From Pomacea canaliculata (taxonomy: Eukaryota > Mollusca > Gastropoda > Architaenioglossa > Ampullariidae), in the NCBI RefSeq assembly GCF_003073045.1, contig NC_037593.1:23865868-23929867 (forward strand): a DNA stretch of 64,000 nt. Reading direction: 5' to 3'. This document shows positions 1 to 57,142 of this stretch, piece by piece. Below the pieces are notes generated by a model. That model was not told the origin of the DNA and did no database searches. It was given only the letters and a program-made list of their open reading frames with translations. The translations under genes and the position numbers were made by a program. How positions within the stretch are numbered: position 1 is the stretch's first letter; every line of letters starts with the position of its first letter.

Positions 1-1433
<1,433 letters not shown>

Positions 1434-1533
1434 NNNNNNNNNNNNNNNNNNNNNNNNNNNNNNNNNNNNNNNNNNNNNNNNNNNNNNNNNNNNNNNNNNN
1501 NNNNNNNNNNNNNNNNNNNNNNNNNNNNNNNNN
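1434..1533. other. Assembly gap of exactly 100 N
   Basis: One hundred consecutive N, the usual placeholder for a scaffold gap of unknown size. The sequence on its two sides need not be adjacent in the genome. Confidence 0.99.
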
Positions 1534-22099: not shown

Positions 22100-25000
22100 T
22101 TAGAGAAATTTCTTGCCTTGTTCATGAAGCAGATTTCCTAAAATGAGTCCAATAAACTGCTGCATGTAATTAGTTCTATGCATTGAATCGCCCATCACAG
22201 ATGTACTAACAGGTTTGAACACCCTGCAATACATAAATTATTTGATTATTGTGCATCCCTCTATTCTAAATTAAAATTTATTCTCCAAAAAATCTAACAA
22301 GGTTTGAAGAAAAACAGAATCATTAACTAGCATCCTTCTAAAGAAATCTCACTCTCTCTTTTTTTCTCTCTCATGCTGCTTCTATGAATTTATGCTTAAA
22401 ATCTCAGATGACAATTTCATATACCATCCTAAATGATATCCACAGCGAGGACAAACAGCTATTGTCCAGGTAAAACCAGGAAACCAGGAATCAGCTAAGT
22501 GAGGCTGCAACACGAGCCAATCATACATTGTTAAAATAATTTATTACAAATAAATAACTTATATAGCACAAATCTTGGCAGGCTGATAGAGAATACCATA
22601 GGAGGCAATATATGTATCCAGCAGATGCTCCCACTTTGCTCAATTCATTACAATTAAAATATATGTATTGCAATTTATTATTATGTATTACAAACTACTT
22701 TTCCCTGCAAGATGCATAGCTAATTAGTATAATAGCCATAGGGAACATGAAATTACTTTGTCAGATGTCTTCATGGCCTTGTCTGATCATGTGCCATGAT
22801 ATAGTCTTAGTTACTGGCATAGCTTTAAATATAAACATTGTCTGATCATGCCTAGCAGAGCTACTCTATCATCCATGATGATCTCTTCCATCAGCTAATG
22901 CTGATTTTCATGAGCCACAAATTAGATAGCAGAATTTCAGCCAACTCTCCTTCTTAGGCTCTGGAATTTGGAATCTCCTGCCTCTTTCTCTTTAAACTGT
23001 GATTATGTTTAAAGTTTTTACATCCAGTTTCAAAACACCTAATTATTTTTGTCAAAACTGAGAAAATGAGGAATAAAGGAAGATGGGTTTGGGGAGCCTT
23101 TACCCTTCTTGTTTACCTGTTCAACTTCTTGCACATCTGCTTCAGAAGATGTGATCAGTTCAAAATATTTTCCTGTAAATATCAATAAAAAAAATGATCT
23201 GATAAATCTGAAACAAACAAAACAATTGTTATTGCTGACCAGGATGATATATGCACATCAAGAATAAGATACAGCAAATAACAGCTCAAATGACATTGAA
23301 AACGAAGACTTAAATTTTTTTCCCAGAAAATAGGAAAATAAACCCTATATCAAACTGCATTCTAATACTCTTTCTCTCAAAAATAGTGCTTTCTAGGGAG
23401 GATTAAATACCTTGTGGATTTTTAAACAGCTGTATAAGTACACCTTTTGCACCAGCAAGTGTATCATTTCGTTGTCTGTGTGCCAATTGACTTGGAATTT
23501 TTACCAGGCTGTCTGCTCTTGTTACTTCCAGTCCACAATGTCTACAGAGCAGGAAACCTACTCACAAAAAGAGATGGGGGATAAGGTGAGGATATAAGTA
23601 ACAAAATTAATCTAACCTTTCAAAACAGCCTAAAAGTGCAAGAGAAGATTAAGCTTGCCACAGATCTCAAAGCTGGTGGGAAACAAAGTTTAGCAAATTA
23701 AAGACGAGGAGACATATGCTAGTCTAGCAAGTCAGCGACAAGTACACAGGTAAAGAGAAAACATGCCCAGCCTTTCTCAACCTTTTCTTATTACCCTGGA
23801 GGGAAGAGGGACAAGCAACTAAGGCTATATCATGTCAAGGCAACCACCCCTGTAAACAGATACCACATGCAGAGAAAGAACAGTGTGACAGAGATGAGAG
23901 AGCTGAACCCTGGACAGCCAGCCTTCACCAAATTGGTGACAGGTGCTAACCATTGCACCACCTGACTCTGGAGAGACTGTGTTAATTATTTTCAGATTCT
24001 AAAAAAACCTTCTGCAGGAAAAAAAATCATACAGCTCATTCTATGGTAGTATGATCAACAAATTGTAGATATAATAATTGATATAATTATGCTGCAATAC
24101 AATTGCAATTCACTTATCTGCCACAGATGAGACACAGGCAGTGAAATAAATGGTTTGAAGGTTTAAATTCTTTATCACTTACCCACATTGTCTATGTGTG
24201 ACTATGGATAGCAATGCTCAAAAGTGAAGTTTTTTTAAAATGATCTCATGGAACATGAGCAACTTTTCATGGAACTCTTGGTTTCTACATAACTCTGATT
24301 TGAAAAAAAAAGGTTGCTTAAGTCTGTTGAAGACCATGTGTGTTGGAAGAGAGAATAGAATAGTAGGAAATATTAAATAAAGAAGTGAGCAATGTAAACA
24401 ATGAGAGGTAGGTCTCAGAATAAGACAAATATGAAGATATGGGGAACTAAATTTAGCCAAGCCCATTTAAAATTCATTTGCACAAATAAAAATAGAACAG
24501 CTCAAGTTTCAAAGCAAAATTAATTACTATAACAATTCTCCTGTTAATTAAAAAATGACCATGCTGGAAATCCTACCAAACAGAGAAAGACTACAGCTGT
24601 GCAGTTTGACATCAGAAATGCACAAGTTTCATGGATACAAAACCTTCTGCTCTCATAAAAATCTATCATCATTCAAAAGCGCCCTAAGCTGCATCAACAG
24701 GCAATGCAACCGAATAAGCTAAATGTTACAAAACATAATTATCGGCTGCATCTCTAGATGAAAATATTGTGATAAAATAATTAGTTAATAAGTTAATGAA
24801 ACTTTGGCTTTAAAAACTGCTTTTGGTGCCATCTGACAAATTACATGGCCGATTATCAACTTCATATTTCTGTTAAAATTTTGCCTCTACCGCAATGTTC
24901 TCTTAAAGTTGTGCATGTGTGCAGATCATGCAGTAGCAAAGAGTATTCAAGTTTTCCAACCGCACACAAACACCTACATTGGAGGGGAAAACCCACTAAT

Positions 25001-25880
25001 GTGGTTGACAACCTTTGTTTCTCTGTATGCAAGTTCACAGATGCATTTTTTCTTTCCTCCCACCTTCCATTACCAACACTTCCTATTATTAGTATATAGA
25101 GATATCACAAAAATATTCTCTTTGTTTTTGGTCTATCAATTATTGCTTTGGTTTTCCTTCATGGACAGTCTTCTGTTTATTCCATATGTTAAAAATGCAA
25201 ACATTCATTTTCAAGCATGATGCCTTTTTCCCTCCAACAACAAAATCACACAAACCATCACTCGACCATTTGTGTTGACTGTGAAAACTTTAGTGCATAA
25301 TTCCTCCTACCCGTTGGGTAGTTGCTGGCACAGAGTAAAACAACCAACCAACCCTATATCCTACCCGTTGGAGGGTATACTGTTCTCTGTACAAAGCTAA
25401 ATGAATAAAATCTAGCATCAACGAATCTTTTCGTCGAAGGGTGGTGAGGGAGATATGAAGTGGGGAGGGGAGATGCATGTGAGGGTGAATGGAAAAAAGT
25501 TTTAACTAAACCTTGGAAACTGAAAGCATGTGACTTTGCTGCCCTGAAAATATCGATCGTAAAAGACGGGATCTGCGCCTAACTAACCTGCTCACGACAC
25601 AGGACTGAATCTTGTGTGTATGTGTGCTATTTGTTCACTTTACACACCACACTTGAACTGTAACCGTTGCTGCTGACGCCGAACAAAAGATTAAAATGGG
25701 ATAAGCATATGGATTTGATGAAACATCCATGCAGTGTCTAATCACACCCTTTCACTTTGAAGCTACATATAATGGCCATGCAGTCACACCTTCAAAGTGG
25801 TCAGCAGTGTTGCACATTGTGCTTGCAAGCAGTTGCGCCAGACAAACAACGTACAGCATCTCTATCGAACTAGCCAGCAT
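22100..25880 (-). CDS. Secreted CULT-domain protein (cereblon thalidomide-binding fold)
   Basis: Five minus-strand exons join with every phase matching: 25790-25880, 23411-23557, 23117-23172, 22425-22504 and 22100-22223 (TAA), giving 165 residues. Residues 1-25 form a signal peptide (hydrophobic MLYVVCLAQLLAS). In-frame ATGs at 25913 and 25982 are alternative starts; 25880 places the hydrophobic core best. The rest is a CULT domain. Zinc pairs are C35/C38 (LCRHCG) and C116/C119 (CPRCGYHLGW). An NPQG turn at 77-80 aligns with NPHG of human cereblon. Trp105, Trp111 and Trp125 have exactly the spacing of the cereblon cage residues 380, 386 and 400, and Phe127 matches Phe402. Asp103 sits where cereblon has His378. 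There is no Lon or DDB1-binding part, so this is not cereblon. CULT proteins that are secreted are a described eukaryotic family; their natural ligand is not known to me. The first intron is 2.2 kb. The gene starts 840 bases from the divergent zinc-finger gene. Confidence 0.85.
23811..23972 (-). mobile_element. tRNA-derived SINE, copy A
   Basis: This aligns with 32485-32640 (shared AACTAAGGCTATATCAT, CTGTAAACAGAT and CACATGCAGAGAAAGAACAG). On the minus strand it starts with GTGGTGCAATGGTTAGCACC (A-box) and carries AGGGTTCAGCT (B-box), as in a tRNA-derived SINE. It lies in intron 1 of the CULT gene. Confidence 0.65.
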
Positions 25881-26718
25881 TGCAGACGCCCTGCAAGACC
25901 AGGGCGCAGACATTATGGCAGGTGAATTGTGGGAAAAGCAGCGCGAGCGGCAAAGTTGTGACCGAGTTTTCCCCGCCCCCATTTTGTTCCTAGCTGTTCC
26001 GTTTACCGTACTTGATTGACCGATACGATTGCATTGTTTTTACGTTCAACTAGTAAAACATATGTGATATTAACTTTTGATAATATAACTAAATGCTTAT
26101 ATTTCTAGTACTTTATAATATATTAAGTCACATTGTTTACTGTCATATCTATAGAAGTACCATACATATTGTTTTAAAAAAAAAATGTGACGCTGTTGAA
26201 GTCAGCACGTACCGGTATAGATATCAGGACATTAATTCTTTACTATCAAAAGTACTTTATTTTTGAGACAAAATTTAAAATTGCAATAGCAGACAGTGCA
26301 CATTCTCAGTCTCAACCCTGTTAGATGAGAAATGTGCAGAAAGCTTTCGTCTGACTAAAACAGAAAATCGGTGGCAACTGTACCAAACTTGCGCTGACCT
26401 TTGCACTCAACTTTCAACCTTCAAGTTGAGTGGCAGCTACAGAGAGCTAGCCAACCAAACCGAGGAGGTGTGGCTAGGCCGCCCAACTAGAATACGTTCT
26501 GCTGATCATGTGGCCGTGTTGACGTTGCGCGAAAGCTCCGCCTTTGCCAGCACCAAAACAAACCGGCGCAGTTCGCCGGCATTTGTTTACATCCAGTGGT
26601 ACTGCTGCGGACGTCAGCGATTGCTGTTGCATACCTGCGCATTTGGAAAATTGGGGAAAGACGCCAACTTTAATTTTCATTGTAATTGTTACCTTGATCT
26701 CATGATCACTTAATAGTT
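25881..26718. promoter_or_regulatory. Shared region between divergent CULT and ZNF395/704-like genes
   Basis: The start codons of the minus-strand CULT gene (25880) and the plus-strand zinc-finger gene (26719) lie 838 bases apart. The right half (26340-26720) is richer in G+C and CpG than its surroundings and has ACGTCAGCG near 26610 (half-CRE) and GTTGACGTTGCGCG near 26518. The middle (26040-26330) is AT-rich. Some of the left part may be 5' UTR of the CULT gene. A bidirectional promoter is possible; two separate promoters are equally compatible. Confidence 0.5.
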
Positions 26719-29700
26719 ATGTCTGGGACAAAACGATTGGCAAAGCGATCTATCGTTGGGACTCGAGTGAGTGCCTTGTGGCAAGATGGCCGGTTTTACC
26801 CTGGCGTTATTCGTGCCCAAGTGGCCGAAGAAACAACTCTCTCTTCAGCCACATACACTATCCATTTTGACGACGGGTTCGAAGCAGATGTGCCGACTTC
26901 ACATGTGATCGGTCCTGGATTTCAAACAGGACCCTTAGTTCGTCTAAAAAAAGCACAAAGGGTCTATGTCACGATGAACGGTCGAGAAGTGTCCGGCTTA
27001 GTGGTGTATCATAACCGAGAGTCGGACGAGGTGATAATCACTGTCAAACACGGCAACACAGAAGATGTCAACATCTGCCGCAGGCTTGAAGACGTTCGTC
27101 TGATGGAAAGTCGAAAATCTGCCAGGCTTGTTGATCAGGACACAGACTATTCAAAGCTGGCCGATTTACAGCTCAGCGAACCCAAACGCCGGGCTGTTTC
27201 CCACAATATTGACGTTCCAGCACAGGCTTTCAAACAGCAGTAAGTGTGGTTTTACGGCTTTTTTTTCCTCTTTTAACTCGTGTGAACACTCTCTTTCTCT
27301 ATATGTTACAGTCTTACTGCCTTTGTTAACGTGCTTACGCCACTTCAATGCCCTTCGTTTACAATGTTTTGCGCAAAGCAGGCGGTCCGGTAAAGCGGAC
27401 ACAAAAGTAGGTCAAGTCACAGGCCCCAGCTGATTCTTGCGTAACTTAGCCGGCACCAAACGCGGCTTGCCGCAGTCATTAAAAGAAGTGTTTTCTTCCA
27501 CGTTTAGTCAAAATATTATTTGATCCCTAGGGAACGGGTATTTTAATCGCAAAATGCTGTGCTTAATACCCTTATCTACGCGGTGGGCTGCGCACTTTAT
27601 GGGCGTTTACAAGTGACTGCACTGGACTTTCACGGCAGCCGGTGGTTCGAGGCCCAGCAACAAAGAACCGAGCCGTGATGACGTTAGCATTTTCTTTAGC
27701 GAGCGGGACTTTTCGCAATGTGTGTGTGCGTGACTGAAGAGTTGAATATTATTTACTTTTAACTGTTGAAACAGGATATGATCATTTATGATAGTTTAGC
27801 TTTTGCTGAAATGATGTGCGTGATGGTGGGGCGGCCTGTTTAACGAGCGTGCATATGTTTGTCCCTGATACTTTGCGACAGGCGCCAAAGACGGCACCGC
27901 GATAGCTCAGGGGACACAGAAGGGTCGAGCGAGCACGGCGGAAACTTCGACGATGTTGAAATGATGGACGAAACCATTGCTGCCATGGTGCTCACCTCAT
28001 TGTCTGTCAGTCCCAAGTCGCCAACGTTCCCCAGCAATTACAGAGGTACCTGAGCTGTCTTCTCTTGCGCCGGCTCTTACACCATTTAGAAACCTATACT
28101 TTTTCATGGCCCATGTTTATGCCGGCGAAAAGTTATTATCTCAGATACAGACATTATCATCACGTAAAAAGTTATCAGAAATGTTTATGGAACCAAAGTC
28201 TGAAAAAAGATATGCCTTTGCCATATGATAGGTTAACATTCATATCCCAAACAACAATGTAGACAACAACATCCAAAGCTACTTTTTTCATCAGGTGATC
28301 AGCAGCTGGAATCATCTCAAGAACTTCAAGCCTGCATCTCTAGTAGTGTAGCAAGTAGTGGTTTCTACAGTGGTCATTCAGAAAGAGATGACCCTTCCCC
28401 ACCACATATGGGTGGCAGTGCTCCAGCCTCCTTTGAATTTCAGGTTCGGTCAGATGCTGTGCTTGACACAGACAGCACAAGCCTGCTTGACTCCAACATT
28501 AGTGGCAAGGTAGGTTCATATATATGTGTGCGTGTTGGTGGTGGTGGTGGTGGGGGGGGGGGGCACATGTGGGGAGAAAGACTTGAGGGGCAATCGAGGG
28601 AGACTATATATATATAGAGTGGTGTTTTAATGTAAGCTTTATGTTCATCTTTGTTTCTGCCTTTCATACATTAAGGAAAAAAAAAGAGAGAGAAATGGTT
28701 CACATATGTTGTCATAAAAATATTGAAACAACCACACATGTGTTTAACAATTCACATGGTACAGGTGATGAAAGACTTCACGCCATGCTTTTTTGTACCT
28801 TTAATTAACCCCCTCTCCTAACACCTCCATGCCGAGCTGGATTAGTGTCAAATTAGTCTCCTTGCCTTTGTCTTTGCATTTTAAGTGCTTGACCCAGTTA
28901 CTTGCCCAAAGTGCTGCCTGTAACCTGGTTTGGGGTAGGAAAATTTTGACACTTTTCCAGAGAGAGAGAGCAGTGACTTTACCGCGCTTGAAGCGATCAG
29001 CGCCTGGCAGCGTGCGCGACCGACATTGTGCGGTCTCGGAGTGCACGAGCACGATAGTAGGGCAAGCCACCGTGATCTTAGGCTGCAGGCGCCTTGACGA
29101 CTGACGATGCCTGTCCTCTCGGGATTTGACTAAATCCCTGCCGATGGAGCGAAGGTTACCGCTTTTTCTTGCGGTCGGAAAGCCATCATCGATATTTTTT
29201 TTTTCATCTTACAATGGCCGCGGGCGTTGCTGAGAAGAGGCTATTGGCTCAGAGTTTTCAGCGCTGACCTGATTCTAGTCAGCTGATAATCGAGGCGGTC
29301 GTGCAAGCCGCGAGCTATTTTTAGACGTCAGCTGCCAGCAGGCTCACTCGCTGCCACCGGCTTCGCCTCCGTAAACTCGCGCGCGGCTACGGACAATGAC
29401 GAGACCACATCAGCACTAAATACAGCTCCTACATCCCGACAGCTAACATAGGATGATGACGTATTCGGTTTGCTTACATTCGTCAGCTGTTGTCAACAAC
29501 TTTCTCGTTCCCCCAAGCCCCAACACGTACCCTCCACACGCTGCAGGTAGCGGAGCCGGGGATTTTGTTTTGGTCACGTGACTTTTACGTCAGCTTTTTT
29601 CTTAGCGGAGGGGCAAAGTACAAAGGCCTGCAGCAGATTGAATAGACCTTGAGCGGTGATAAGCGACAGAGGAAGTCGATATTTAGCAAAGAGTGTTAGT

Positions 29701-43102: not shown

Positions 43103-45981
43103 CTACTTCTTAACTTTACGTTCAAGTGGCTGGCTGAGCTCCTCAATCCGAGGTGTTGGGTGGGCGTGTCGAGCTGCAAGGGAAACTTTAAAAGGATCAT
43201 AATCATCCTTGAGTAACCAGCGACTTCGTGGTCGGCTCAGCTGCAGCACTCGTGCTGATGCCATAACTTTCTTTGCTGCCTCTGAGACGTCCCACTGTAC
43301 AGGCCTTGGCCAACAAAAATCCTGTAACAGTGTAAACACAGACAACATCCTCTTGTGCAACAAACAGACTCCATCAAAATTAAATAAACCAAGAATGTAA
43401 TAGACAGTAACATAGATGTGACAGAGGAAGAGGCAATTATTTGAAAAAATGATGAGAATGACATGAAGAATTGCTATGACACATTAATGGCCACCTTTCC
43501 ATAATTCTTCTCTTGGTCAGCTTTAGTGATACATTTCTCCAATGACTAAAGAGAAACATTTTTTTCTCACAAACTGGCATGGCAGGCCCTTTTAGACAGT
43601 CACAAACATTGAAAGATGCGGCTAAGGTAGACAAGATGTCCCAATTCTGATGCTAACGAAAACTAGCACTAACACTGAAATCAAACCCTGCTTTAATGAC
43701 CAAGTTTAGGCAGAGAAAAGTTCCTTTTTATTGTTTAACTTTTAACATTTTTTATCCCATATTTCACTAAGTGTTTTGACTTAGCAGAAGCTCCTTTATT
43801 GATTGGACCTTACTTTGTGAAAAGGCCTTGGCTCGGCCAATTTTTCCATTCGTTCTGTAACGGTGGCTGTGAGCACTGCTACAGGCAAAGGGTAATATTC
43901 TCCCCACTGTGAGTCATAAGCATCGTAGCAGTTTACACGTGTTTTGGGGGCAGACATTGCTATGATGCGTGTTGATGGTTCGGCGTAAAGAGCTTCTTTT
44001 TTGACAGACATGTAAGGTGATCGTGGCATCTGATAATAAGGAGAAATCCTCTTTGGCTCACTAAGCTCTAGTACACGCTGAGAGGCAACTGCATGCTTTG
44101 CTCTTTCACTGACAGGCCATATTGGAGATCTGTACACAAATAAGGTACACCTTTTAGTAAAGCCCAGTTTCTATGCAGTCTCTTGTTTTCCTCAAATTAC
44201 CACACAAAAAGCAATTGGTCATTAGTCTTAAATGTATTTTGTCTTATTATATTGAACTATCTTCAAATATGGTGGGTATTGAGCATCTTAGGCCTAATCA
44301 AATTTCATTTGAGACTTTAGCATCTATTCTATAACCATTTAGTGACTATTTCTCTCTTGCACATACACAAGCACATACATGCATGTGCACATGCACACAC
44401 ATATGCCTCACACACAAACACCACAACAAATATATACAGGCAGAAATAAGAGAGGAACAGTGCAAAGCTCTACAGGGTACCTGTCAGGATACCACCCAGT
44501 TTTCACAATTTTGGGTCTAGCAAGTTCATCTTCTCTATCTGTAGTATCTGAAACAATTTTGGTGGGGGAGGGGGATTTATTCAACAGCTAAAAAAACCAA
44601 CTGCATTTAATAATGAAGTTGCTGTTAATCTTGATAGTATGAAAGTCTTTTCTAATTAAGTTTTAAGAACATCATTTTTTTTAACTTGGAAGAAACATCC
44701 TGTATACATTTTTATTTTTAATTGATCTACAGCAGAAAAGGAATATGATCATTTAGTTTTAAAAAAATGTGTCTTGCCTTTCCTTTTCAAAATATTTTAC
44801 ATGGGTTAGCAATTTTGGATCATGTCCATTGACTTTAAATCCCTGATAAATTATTATGTTGATCTATAATGACCAATCAGCAATGCATTACATAAGTTAC
44901 ATTTGCACAGATTTTCATATTAGTATAGATCGAATGGGCACTTACAAAAGCATGTGGCACCATTTGCCTCAGGTCTTAGTGGGACATGTGTAATCCAATA
45001 CACACTTCTCCTGAAACAGAGCAAGAAGCATGCACAGTTGTCACCATTGAGCAATGTTTGTGAATTCTGCTCTTTACCATTTTTTAATTTACCTATTTTA
45101 TTTCTATATTGGATTACATAATTACAACTTCAGAGAGATAAAGATCATGTATGCAAATTTATTATATGGATAGTAGACAGACACAGGAATACTCCAGGTG
45201 AGTGTAAGAGGGATAGACTGATATAGAGAGACATAGAGAAAGAATGAGGAAAATTGATGTAGAAAATTAAACTGCATGTAGACTTCATATTTTAATGTAC
45301 CCAAGAAGTTTATGTTCAGTATATATAGCTGTAATGAATGGCATTAAAGCTTCTTAACTCGCTTGAAACGTTTATGACAATATATTTTTTTGTTTTGCTA
45401 GCTTACATAACTGATCTTGAATTAAAACACTTGAGTACGGGGCTGGACTTAGAAAGTTTAGTTAGAACAATGTGCGGATTAAATCTGCGTGATATGTGAT
45501 TTGTTTTTCTTTTCACTCACATATGCACTTTGTTAATTGTTGTTGCTCTGGTTGTTAACACTTATAATTGCATGATTGTTGTACATGCACTACTGGCGCG
45601 TCCAACGTGGATGAACATATATACATGTATCGATATATCTTGGTTGAGACTTAATGAACTAATACGTTTTAATCCTACACACACCATGCTGCTGCTCTTG
45701 CTTCAAATGATCGTGAATATATATATAGATAACAATAGATCGTCATCGATTTCTAGCATACCTGTCATCAAGTTTGGTTGAGACTGTTTTTGGTCGAGCA
45801 AGGTAGTCCAGCCGTCGTCCCGTCAGACCTGTGATTAAGATAAGCAGGCGGTCACAGTTCAGTTCACTAAAACATTTCAACTGACAAAAAAGTCGGTGAT
45901 ATGTTTTTTTTTTCTGCATACTAAAAGAATCCGCTCACCGTTACCAACTGGAGGCTGTGTCGTCTGCTCCGTCGTCATCAT
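43103..45981 (-). CDS. THEG-repeat sperm protein (SPMAP2/SPMAP2L-like)
   Basis: Six minus-strand exons join with all phases matching: 45939-45981 (ATG), 45762-45828, 44946-45010, 44481-44547, 43814-44129 and 43103-43321 (TAG), giving 258 residues. The protein is built from THEG repeats of the form R-hydrophobic-x-x-L/M-[AS]-x-P. They read RLDYLARPK, DELARPK, RVLELSEPK, RIIAMSAPK, RMEKLAEPR, RVLQLSRPR and RIEELSQPL. Between them are the linkers VYWITHVPLRPE, SPIWPVSERAKHAVAS and PVQWDVSEAAKKVMAS. Vertebrate THEG proteins are testis-specific and are reported in or near sperm axonemal microtubules, so a role in the sperm tail is likely here. Several exons are about 65 bases and easily missed. 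The protein is shorter than many vertebrate relatives. Confidence 0.88.
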
Positions 45982-54189: not shown

Positions 54190-56275
54190 TGGCTAATTTG
54201 TACCATTTTTAGATCTTTGTCTCATTGTTTAAAAAAAAATACAGTGTCCAGAGCATAAAGACTGCATACATTTTATTACATTAGCTTGAGCTTGAAATTG
54301 GTAGAAATTTGAGAGATGCTGTGATTATTATGGGTTATATGTATAAGTTTATGAATGACACTGATGATTGTCGAATAAATGTTTAGAAAATAAAACACTG
54401 TAGAGCCAATCCAAGTTGTGTTTTGTATGTACTTAGCAGTTGATTACAATCTTGGACAAGTAAGAGCCCATACTACATCATCTCCCACATCTCTCCCCAC
54501 ACCCTACAAAAAAAAAACTGCACAAAAATAAAACTGTAGATGAGTTGGAATATATACCCATGCACTCACTTCACTACATTTTGTTGTGCTATATATATAT
54601 AAACAAGAATAAGTAGCAACATACCTTGTAGATTAGTTTATCTAATGTTTCACTGCATGTTGCCCTAATGTGCCTATTGCCTCTGTTGTCTTCTTTAGTA
54701 TTTTTCCCTTAACATTTACCATCCTTCATTTTTACCTTCATACATAGCATTTCTTTCATATCCTGTACTTAATGATTTTTGATTCAAACGCACAGCACAC
54801 GATCCTGCACGAGCTGCACTATATAAAGCATGCATTTATAATAATACAATGGGAGATAAAGTGTCCTAGGGGTGCAATGGCCTCCCTTGGACAAACTCCT
54901 GAATGCTTCATCGTACCACGAACTTAGTTAAGCGTAAGGATCATTTTGCTTTTACCTGCAGCATCGAATTGTACCAAAACGTAGACAAGATCTGTATTAA
55001 AAGAATGTAACACTTTATATACATATACTGATTTCTTACGCATGAAGTTTCATGATACTACAGCACTTACCAAGCTTAACACAATTGCAGTTTGTAAGAG
55101 ATATCACACAGGAAGCGTTTGCTGAATTTCCTTTACATCAAGGCCATTAGTGAGGGATACAACTGTATGAAACAAATTCATGAAGGTAATCCCATTAATC
55201 TGTGTTAAGCTTCTTTATTGTGTTAAGTAGTAACTTCGTACAAAGATAACCGCCACAGTTTTTGATCTTTATTTTACAATTTAAGTACATAAGACGGATA
55301 GCTTCCCCTGTCAATTTAGAGTAGCCTCCCATTAAAATTTAATGTTATAAAACCTTAACATGTCAACTTCATATAAGTTACAATTTTTACAAAGATTGTA
55401 AAACAATATAATATGATTTGTTTTCCTTTTTTAATATGTAGAACTTAAGATTTTTATCCTCAAATAAAATAATAAGGATAAGGGAAAGACTGCACCTGCA
55501 GATTTTCTTATGTGAAATGAAGTCAAATGGAATAAGTTTCACTACTTCTCACTCTGGTTGGTCTTTCACCCACGAGGGCCTTTTTTTCTCCGACTAAAGA
55601 TGTGCGTGGTAACACGAGATCTTTGTTCCTTTTACTAAAGGTTTACGTGGAGAGGAACAACTTACGAGTATATAAACCAATTTTTTGTGCTCCCGAGAAG
55701 GGTAGCTAAATGATGAAATGTAGTTAATTAAATTATCAGCAAGGTGAGTGCTGGAGCAGAAGTGCATTGATTACTAGATGTTCTCACTGTGCTACTATTG
55801 TCTGCACAGCCTTGCCCCAGCATACCTATCTGAGCTAATGTTTTACCAGTTACCACCCAAGTCGGTGTCTTTGGTCTGCTTATGTTACCTGTGCCAGCAT
55901 CAGAGGGAAGAAATTCAGCCCTACTGTTTCGAATTCTCTGCTTCTTTCTCTTCAAACTGTCTGTACTTCGAAGCTTTCAAGTTCGGCCTCAAAGCCCACC
56001 CCTTTAAGAAATGTGTCACCTAATCAAATTTTGTTCTGCTCACTCCTCTGTTTATTTTCTTCTATGCACTTTGATCATGTTTGCCAGGATGTTATCCGTT
56101 TGTGCTTCTTTTACTGTTGGTTTGTTTGTAATCTTTCATGTATGAGCTTTACAAATTCAATTATCATTAGAAGTATTTAATGATATAATATTGAGATTTT
56201 TTATTGTTTTAAATGTTTATGGATTTTTTAAATATTTATGTACATAAAGTACTTATTTTCCCCAATTTGTTTCAG
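54190..56275. other. Spacer between EXOSC6 and the DHHC exon
   Basis: The first 200 bases are the EXOSC6 3' UTR. The rest is AT-rich and holds a LINE relic (55795-56025). The first exon of the DHHC gene should lie here or inside this interval. A minimal candidate, ATG TGC GTG followed by GTAACA at 55600-55608, would join in phase 0 but is unproven. Confidence 0.45.
55795..56025 (+). mobile_element. Non-LTR retrotransposon relic (3' end of ORF2)
   Basis: The plus-strand frame reads CLHSLAPAYLSELMFYQLPP, later YCFEFSASFSSNCLYF and FKFGLKAHPF. This follows the common LINE C-terminal layout: LAPxYLSELL, then RSF-x-x-xAP-x-LWN, then FKxxLKTHLF. The middle part is degraded. It lies directly upstream of the DHHC exon and probably sits in that gene's first intron. 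Confidence 0.7.
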
Positions 56276-57142
56276 AACAGAGATGTCAAAAAAAATTGGG
56301 AATGGAAACTAGCTGCACTAAACATTGTAGGCATCTTGTATTTTGTTATATTATCCATCAGCTCATTAATAATTAATCTCTTCATCACAATGCCAGATGC
56401 CTTTGGATATGACCCACAACTTCTGTTCTATAGCCGTGCATCTGTTGTGTATATCTTCATTGTTCTCATTTTGAACTATTTATGCCTGGTCTACTTCAAG
56501 AAACACTCTTATGTGTCATCGGCACACAGTGCATTACCAAAATTCATTTCACAGGAGCCAGGTGGTTTCCAAACATGCAACAGATGTGCACTTTTTTGTC
56601 CACCACGGGCCAAACATTGTCCACTGTGTCAGCATTGTGTCTTGAAGCGAGATCACCATTGTTTCTTTGGAGGCTGCTGTGTTGGATTCCACAACCAAAG
56701 ATATTTCATTGTCTTTTGTTTTTATGGCATTGTTGGAGCTCTGTACACCACTGCGGTTACCTTTCGGTACCTAAGTAAATATTATGTTAATGTGCTAAGT
56801 CTTCAGGTGTATTCTTATTTTTTACCATTCTTGCTGTGGAACTGGACAGTAGGTCAAGTGCAGGCTAACATTGTTGCTATGGTGATATATGGCTTCTTTT
56901 GTTTTTTCGCGTTATGTGGCTGTTGCTATTATTTTGCTTTTCAGTGCATGCTTCTTGTAACGGGGCAAACTTCTTATGAATATGTCAAGGGTATTACAGA
57001 GTACAAGCGCCCACTGCTGGTAAACATAGCCTCAGTCTTTGGACCATTTTGGTTCTTAAACTTCATATTTCCAGTCCCTTGCTTGAAGAGTGGTGAGGAT
57101 GGAATTAACTGGAGGGAACATTTAGACTTGAAAAATAGATAA
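56276..57142 (+). CDS. DHHC palmitoyltransferase (ZDHHC24/ZDHHC22-like), main exon
   Basis: A 289-codon exon lies behind a good acceptor (CCCAATTTGTTTCAG) and ends in TAA. The frame runs on upstream to an ATG at 56213, but that would read through the acceptor, so I take the 5' end of the coding region to be in an upstream exon. Four membrane segments are visible: ALNIVGILYFVILSISSLII, VVYIFIVLILNYLCLVYF, YFIVFCFYGIVGALYTTAV and AMVIYGFFCFFALCGCCYYF. Between the second and third lies the cytosolic Cys-rich domain, with CNRCALFCPPRAKHCPLCQHC (zinc ligands), the catalytic RDHHC and CVGFHNQRYF. After the fourth segment TSYEYVKG stands where the family has TTxE. DHHC enzymes S-acylate Cys of target proteins at internal membranes. 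The subfamily is a best guess from the short tails and four-segment layout. Confidence 0.9.
   Translation, partial: NRDVKKNWEWKLAALNIVGILYFVILSISSLIINLFITMPDAFGYDPQLLFYSRASVVYIFIVLILNYLCLVYFKKHSYVSSAHSALPKFISQEPGGFQTCNRCALFCPPRAKHCPLCQHCVLKRDHHCFFGGCCVGFHNQRYFIVFCFYGIVGALYTTAVTFRYLSKYYVNVLSLQVYSYFLPFLLWNWTVGQVQANIVAMVIYGFFCFFALCGCCYYFAFQCMLLVTGQTSYEYVKGITEYKRPLLVNIASVFGPFWFLNFIFPVPCLKSGEDGINWREHLDLKNR

Follow-up and report, generated by a model that had tools for sequence, protein, structure and literature searches.

A probable gastropod member of the secreted animal CULT-domain family in Pomacea canaliculata

The CULT domain family has been surveyed by Lupas et al. (2015; PMC4287342), whose description defines a group II of animal proteins that consist of a single CULT domain with a secretion signal, represented in Danio rerio, Caenorhabditis brenneri, Trichoplax adhaerens and Nasonia; what CULT domains bind under physiological conditions is left open in that account. 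The bacterial protein MsCI4 has been reported to have low micromolar affinity for both thalidomide and uridine, its pocket becoming ordered upon ligand binding. C-terminal cyclic imides have been described as marks that cereblon recognises, and the Y384A variant of human cereblon has been reported to be deficient in thalidomide binding.

I analysed a stretch of 64,000 nucleotides from the genome of the snail P. canaliculata (hereafter the window), in which an initial annotation had proposed that five small exons join in perfect phase. Re-deriving the frame confirms this: five minus-strand exons splice in phase to a 165-residue protein, with a coding sequence (CDS) of 498 nucleotides including the stop. 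All four introns run GT..AG, with cumulative phases of 1, 1, 0 and 2. The exons, in window positions, are as follows.

Exon 1, 25790..25880, minus strand: probable signal peptide and start of the mature protein; GT donor, phase 1
Exon 2, 23411..23557, minus strand: zinc pair C35/C38 through the NPxG hairpin (FKNPQ)
Exon 3, 23117..23172, minus strand: GKYFELITSSEADVQEVEQ, second half of the inserted hairpin; 18 whole codons
Exon 4, 22425..22504, minus strand: PHLADSWFPGFTWTIAVCPRCGYHLGW, Trp cage W105/W111/W125 and zinc pair C116/C119
Exon 5, 22100..22223, minus strand: VFKPVS...QFIGLILGNLL...KKFL and stop; last part of the CULT domain

The CULT domain spans residues 31–159 of the 165. The residues that had been singled out as a pocket signature, namely C35/C38, C116/C119, W105, W111, W125, F127, D103 and an NPxG turn, are all found at the positions claimed, the turn being N77-P78-Q79-G80. 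Exon 2 bears an insert in the alignments with cereblon and the bacterial CULT proteins, and the exon 5 residues F148, G150, L151 and I152 fall in columns conserved in at least 90% of the aligned rows.

An HMM search bears out the assignment to the CULT family. Using phmmer against PDB sequences, residues 74–130 match a cereblon chain (E=3.3e-10) and residues 64–128 match bacterial MsCI4 (E=4e-9). I then collected 29 bacterial CULT loci, starting from a small alignment in which the window domain stood beside two fragments of cereblon; the motifs were found in 49 stretches, of which 29 are relatives. A profile was built from these 29 bacterial proteins alone, leaving out the window protein, which nonetheless scores 78.7 bits, compared to 11.6 bits for the best of 1000 shuffles. 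When the same profile was run on 2164 six-frame fragments of the window, the top three were exons 4, 2 and 5, in that order (E=1.2e-12, 0.008 and 0.79, the next fragment having 1.9), and three CULT exons are thus recovered independently of the gene model, with the exon 5 fragment not significant by itself among the 2164. Exon 3 has no match of its own to the bacterial profile, but the phmmer alignment to cereblon over residues 74–130 runs across it.

The alignments further illustrate which positions are kept. N77, S104, W105, F106, G108, W111, C116, C119, G124 and W125 are invariant across 31 aligned rows, both CxxC pairs align with the zinc pairs of the bacterial proteins, and the hairpin turn is likewise kept. 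The Trp spacing of 6 and 14 is seen in 30 of 30 rows (window and 29 bacterial), and is partly enforced by the search motif: the window protein was itself part of the alignment from which the motifs (SWFPG..W and NP.G stretches) were taken, which makes the motif columns partly dependent on it. The snail protein is divergent, with 27–37% identity to the six other rows of a seven-row alignment, and it forms a long, unplaced branch in a tree of the bacterial and cereblon rows. In Pfam, no family exceeds its cut-off for the snail protein, the best being Yippee-Mis18 at 18.1 bits where 26.6 are required. That model has no match in the snail genome, but is also silent in all 14 controls, and the search is therefore uninformative. 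A 64-residue part of the protein gave 19 pattern matches and no relatives in viral contigs, and the CULT domain has no match in 50,697 phage records. On the profile and PDB matches, the snail domain is a homologue of those in cereblon and MsCI4, and the gene very probably encodes a CULT-domain protein.

Among the bacterial loci, ten single-domain CULT genes are in MAGs (L019, L022, L032, L036, L038, L039, L040, L043, L044 and L045), labelled as Eremiobacterota, Cyanobacteria, Acidobacteria, Aminicenantes, Limisphaera and Chloroflexi. Taking these labels as given, the spread is wider than that in the 2015 account (PMC4287342).

Exon 1, which lies outside the CULT domain and has no similarity support, is the weakest part of the gene model. 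No 11-mer in the protein is more hydrophobic than residues 8–18 (2.27), and 1007 of 20000 shuffles attain this value somewhere in their first 30 residues. Of the 29 bacterial proteins, 28 have no equally hydrophobic N-terminal stretch, their maximum ahead of the first zinc pair being 1.36 (L034 was excluded, owing to an early chance CxxC). Such exons are nevertheless common by chance: over both strands the window has 86 stretches that run in phase from an ATG to a donor and contain an 11-mer with a hydropathy of at least 2.0, or about 2.5 per 3.7 kb of strand, in a count that takes several ATGs of one exon separately.

A different first exon, with the CULT exons being real and the protein intracellular, is rather improbable, but finds some grounds in this chance frequency, in the presence of a competing hydrophobic first exon at 24466-24289, and in the uncertainty of the start, since in-frame ATGs are found at 25982, 25913 and 25880, the first of which would add 34 residues ahead of M1. 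The two candidate exons differ in their context, and it is this that leads me to prefer exon 1: the CpG observed/expected ratio is 0.88 around it, on the margin of a CpG-rich stretch extending to 28 kb across the divergent neighbour, whereas it is 0.0 around 24466-24289. The single-domain CULT proteins of animals, as described in PMC4287342, also have a secretion signal. The hydrophobic stretch and the CpG context speak for the signal peptide that had been claimed for this protein; the ease with which such an exon arises by chance and its lack of similarity support speak against it. With exon 1 as modelled, on which this prediction depends, the protein is likely secreted.

The gene has a second copy in the assembly. 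I searched the genome (440,159,624 bases in 24 contigs, the window contig being C4) and found 12 matches at E≤10, ten of which are in two copies: that of the window, and one further exon set 29 kb upstream in the same orientation, at C4:23858700-23862458, just outside the window. The others are on C8 (E=0.44) and C7 (E=2.7). Both were dropped; the minus-strand frames in the region of the C8 match resemble, by eye, a ryanodine receptor. The paired regions, C4:23838585-23867282 and window 1534-30171, are each about 29 kb long and alignable over most of their length, in six long BLAST pieces of 86–97% identity (86–92% outside the gene region). Between them lies the following feature.

100-N gap, 1434..1533, no strand: the only run of N in the window, separating the window copy from the upstream copy

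The left flank of this gap aligns with the terminal part of the right-hand copy. The two coding sequences differ at 2 of 498 positions, changing one amino acid (G136S), with the splice sites and the whole frame kept. In the introns 55 of 3234 aligned positions differ, gaps set aside, which is 1.7%. Had the coding sequence changed as fast as the introns, about 8.5 differences would be expected in it; the Poisson P for 2 or fewer is 0.01, which points to coding constraint, although this figure depends on two changes, of which one alters the protein. The P. canaliculata genome paper gives a heterozygosity of 1–2% and reports that heterozygous regions emerged as alternative contigs. Since a 100-N gap is what separates the copies and their intron divergence lies within this range, the upstream copy is probably the other haplotype, with two haplotype contigs placed end to end.

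That it would instead be a true recent tandem paralogue, giving the snail two secreted CULT genes, is improbable. In its favour, both copies are intact, 29 kb apart and in the same orientation on one contig, and the 86–92% identity outside the gene region goes beyond average heterozygosity, which speaks somewhat against plain alleles. The gap, the match of its left flank to the end of the right-hand copy, and an intron divergence inside the published range all point the other way, and tandem duplication as biology was set aside for haplotype overlap on these grounds. If the haplotypes are indeed uncollapsed, every gene in the ∼29-kb stretch would be doubled. Very long and nearly pure T tracts are found near the gap, at window 556-864, possibly a sequencing or assembly artefact.

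In the ligand pocket, the cage of human cereblon is formed by W380, W386 and W400 with F402, and on this numbering Asp103 stands in the snail protein for His378, and Phe109 for Tyr384. These two pocket differences, and the binding defect reported for human Y384A, weigh against the mode of action proposed below. The zinc pairs, NPxG, SWFPG and the equivalents of the cage Trp and Phe residues are kept between the two proteins, while the snail hairpin reads NPQGKYFE against NPHGYVHE in cereblon, and the Lon domain is lacking. With MsCI4 (PDB 4V2Y) and the other bacterial single-domain proteins, the snail protein has in common both the stand-alone domain and the same cage residues.

The initial annotation had taken Asp103 as a sign that specificity may differ. 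The substitution itself is confirmed, but is a weak indication of changed specificity, as the position varies: among 30 rows (window and 29 bacterial) it is occupied by F in 17, D in 3, A in 3, H in 3, Y in 3 and W in 1, Asp being shared by the window protein and two of the 29 bacteria (L029 and L030). MsCI4, whose motif is EFSWFKGYDW, has Phe there. The Tyr384 position is Y in 18 and F in 12 of the same rows, and two positions beyond the third Trp, F and Y occur in 15 rows each. Because both positions of the substitutions vary, and because MsCI4 binds its ligands with Phe at the first, neither Asp103 nor Phe109 alone is a sign of a lost pocket, though either may modulate it.

The protein could then work as follows. 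The CxxC pairs would hold zinc and pin the beta-tent fold, the signal peptide would direct export, and W105, W111 and W125 would form a cage closing around a small planar ring of imide or uracil type, candidates being a uridine-like metabolite or the cyclic imide in which an aged peptide terminates. Ligand binding may order the pocket, as in MsCI4. The protein would be an extracellular binding or scavenging protein and not an enzyme; no catalytic or ligase part is apparent in the 165 residues, and a ubiquitin-ligase role would be absent, because this length leaves no space for a Lon or DDB1-binding part. A working cage for imide- or uracil-type rings is reasonably probable, and that its ligands would lie outside the cell is a fair inference. 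Either particular class, uridine-like or cyclic-imide, is doubtful when taken singly. The fuller proposal, in which the protein would read cyclic-imide ends or uracil-type rings outside the cell and Asp103, on the rim of the pocket, would shift its preference away from that of cereblon, is unlikely as a whole; were it true, the protein would be an extracellular sensor of a metabolite or of products of protein ageing.

The gene neighbourhoods of the bacterial relatives were also compared. For 22 of the 29 loci, 44 ORFs lying next to the CULT gene were compared with one another; apart from those of two pairs of near-identical relatives, L019/L036 and L027/L031, they show weak likenesses only. 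Pfam, run on 20 of the 44, identified two radical SAM proteins, two ABC transporters and two with Pyr_redox_2, four having no family and the rest being all different. No clue to the ligand emerges from the 20 neighbourhood ORFs scanned.

Compared with group II as described in PMC4287342, the snail protein has in common the single CULT domain, the probable N-terminal signal, the zinc CxxC pairs, the hairpin motif and the three Trp, a likeness drawn from the published description; it also has an insert before the hairpin and a longer loop before QFIGL, which that group may or may not share. Within the secreted animal CULT family it is likely a gastropod representative, made of the ligand-binding domain of cereblon on its own, preceded by a signal peptide. 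That it would be new in kind is not supported, as secreted single-domain CULT proteins of animals are already described there, and the snail gene adds one member to the family described in 2015. No separate description of this gene was found in the papers searched for cereblon and CULT-domain proteins. The word cereblon is absent from the text of the P. canaliculata genome paper, a search for secreted or salivary cereblon-type proteins returned only unrelated results, and the passage found in a sand fly salivary paper names no CULT protein. A probably secreted snail member with intact cage residues beside an ordinary cereblon offers a further system in which to ask for the physiological CULT ligand, and a pocket of the thalidomide type may exist in animals outside the cell as well as in cereblon.

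The cereblon of the same genome is a separate gene, on contig C9. Seven Lon-family matches are listed for the genome, on C12, C3, C13 and C9, and with none of the seven on C4 the window gene is not a Lon-CULT fusion of the cereblon type, which agrees with the earlier claim that the Lon part is absent. The C9 frame resembles, by eye, the start of the cereblon Lon domain. About 17 kb downstream of it are two exons with a cereblon-type CULT domain, reading EHSWFPG, an intron, and YSWTIAQC; in the tree, this domain and the cereblon fragment from the PDB form a pair with 100/100 support. The C9 gene is split inside SWFPG^Y, while the window gene is uninterrupted there and has its introns elsewhere, and it is therefore not a recent cereblon copy. 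A search of the genome for an uninterrupted W-F-P-G-[YF]-x-W motif (x being S, P, T or A) gave two matches, which are the two secreted-type copies, against one for the backward-pattern control; cereblon is missing from these matches, as expected if an intron splits its motif.

A decaying or split cereblon gene could account for the lack of Lon and for the divergent, long-branched CULT domain, but is scarcely credible given a cereblon (Lon exon and 100/100 CULT pairing) on another contig, the different intron positions of the two genes, and a frame and splice sites intact in both copies, with a CDS that has changed less than the introns.

Upstream of the independent, secreted-type CULT gene, whose protein is made of the CULT domain only (31–159 of 165), the neighbouring gene is on the opposite strand. 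A frame of this plus-strand divergent neighbour, at 26698-27243, matches DUF4772 (5.4e-26) and Tudor models, and the two genes may share a divergent promoter. The other copy of this neighbour is 94.9% identical with 12 gap positions, its matching pieces lying in different frames; judging by these gaps and differences of frame, one copy of the DUF4772/Tudor gene has errors or damage. Further along the window, a testicular haploid expressed repeat (THEG) frame is found on the minus strand at 43106-43483 (Pfam 2e-15), and a single frame of 309 amino acids on the plus strand at 56213-57139, apparently intronless over its length, encodes a DHHC palmitoyltransferase (Pfam 2.1e-27).
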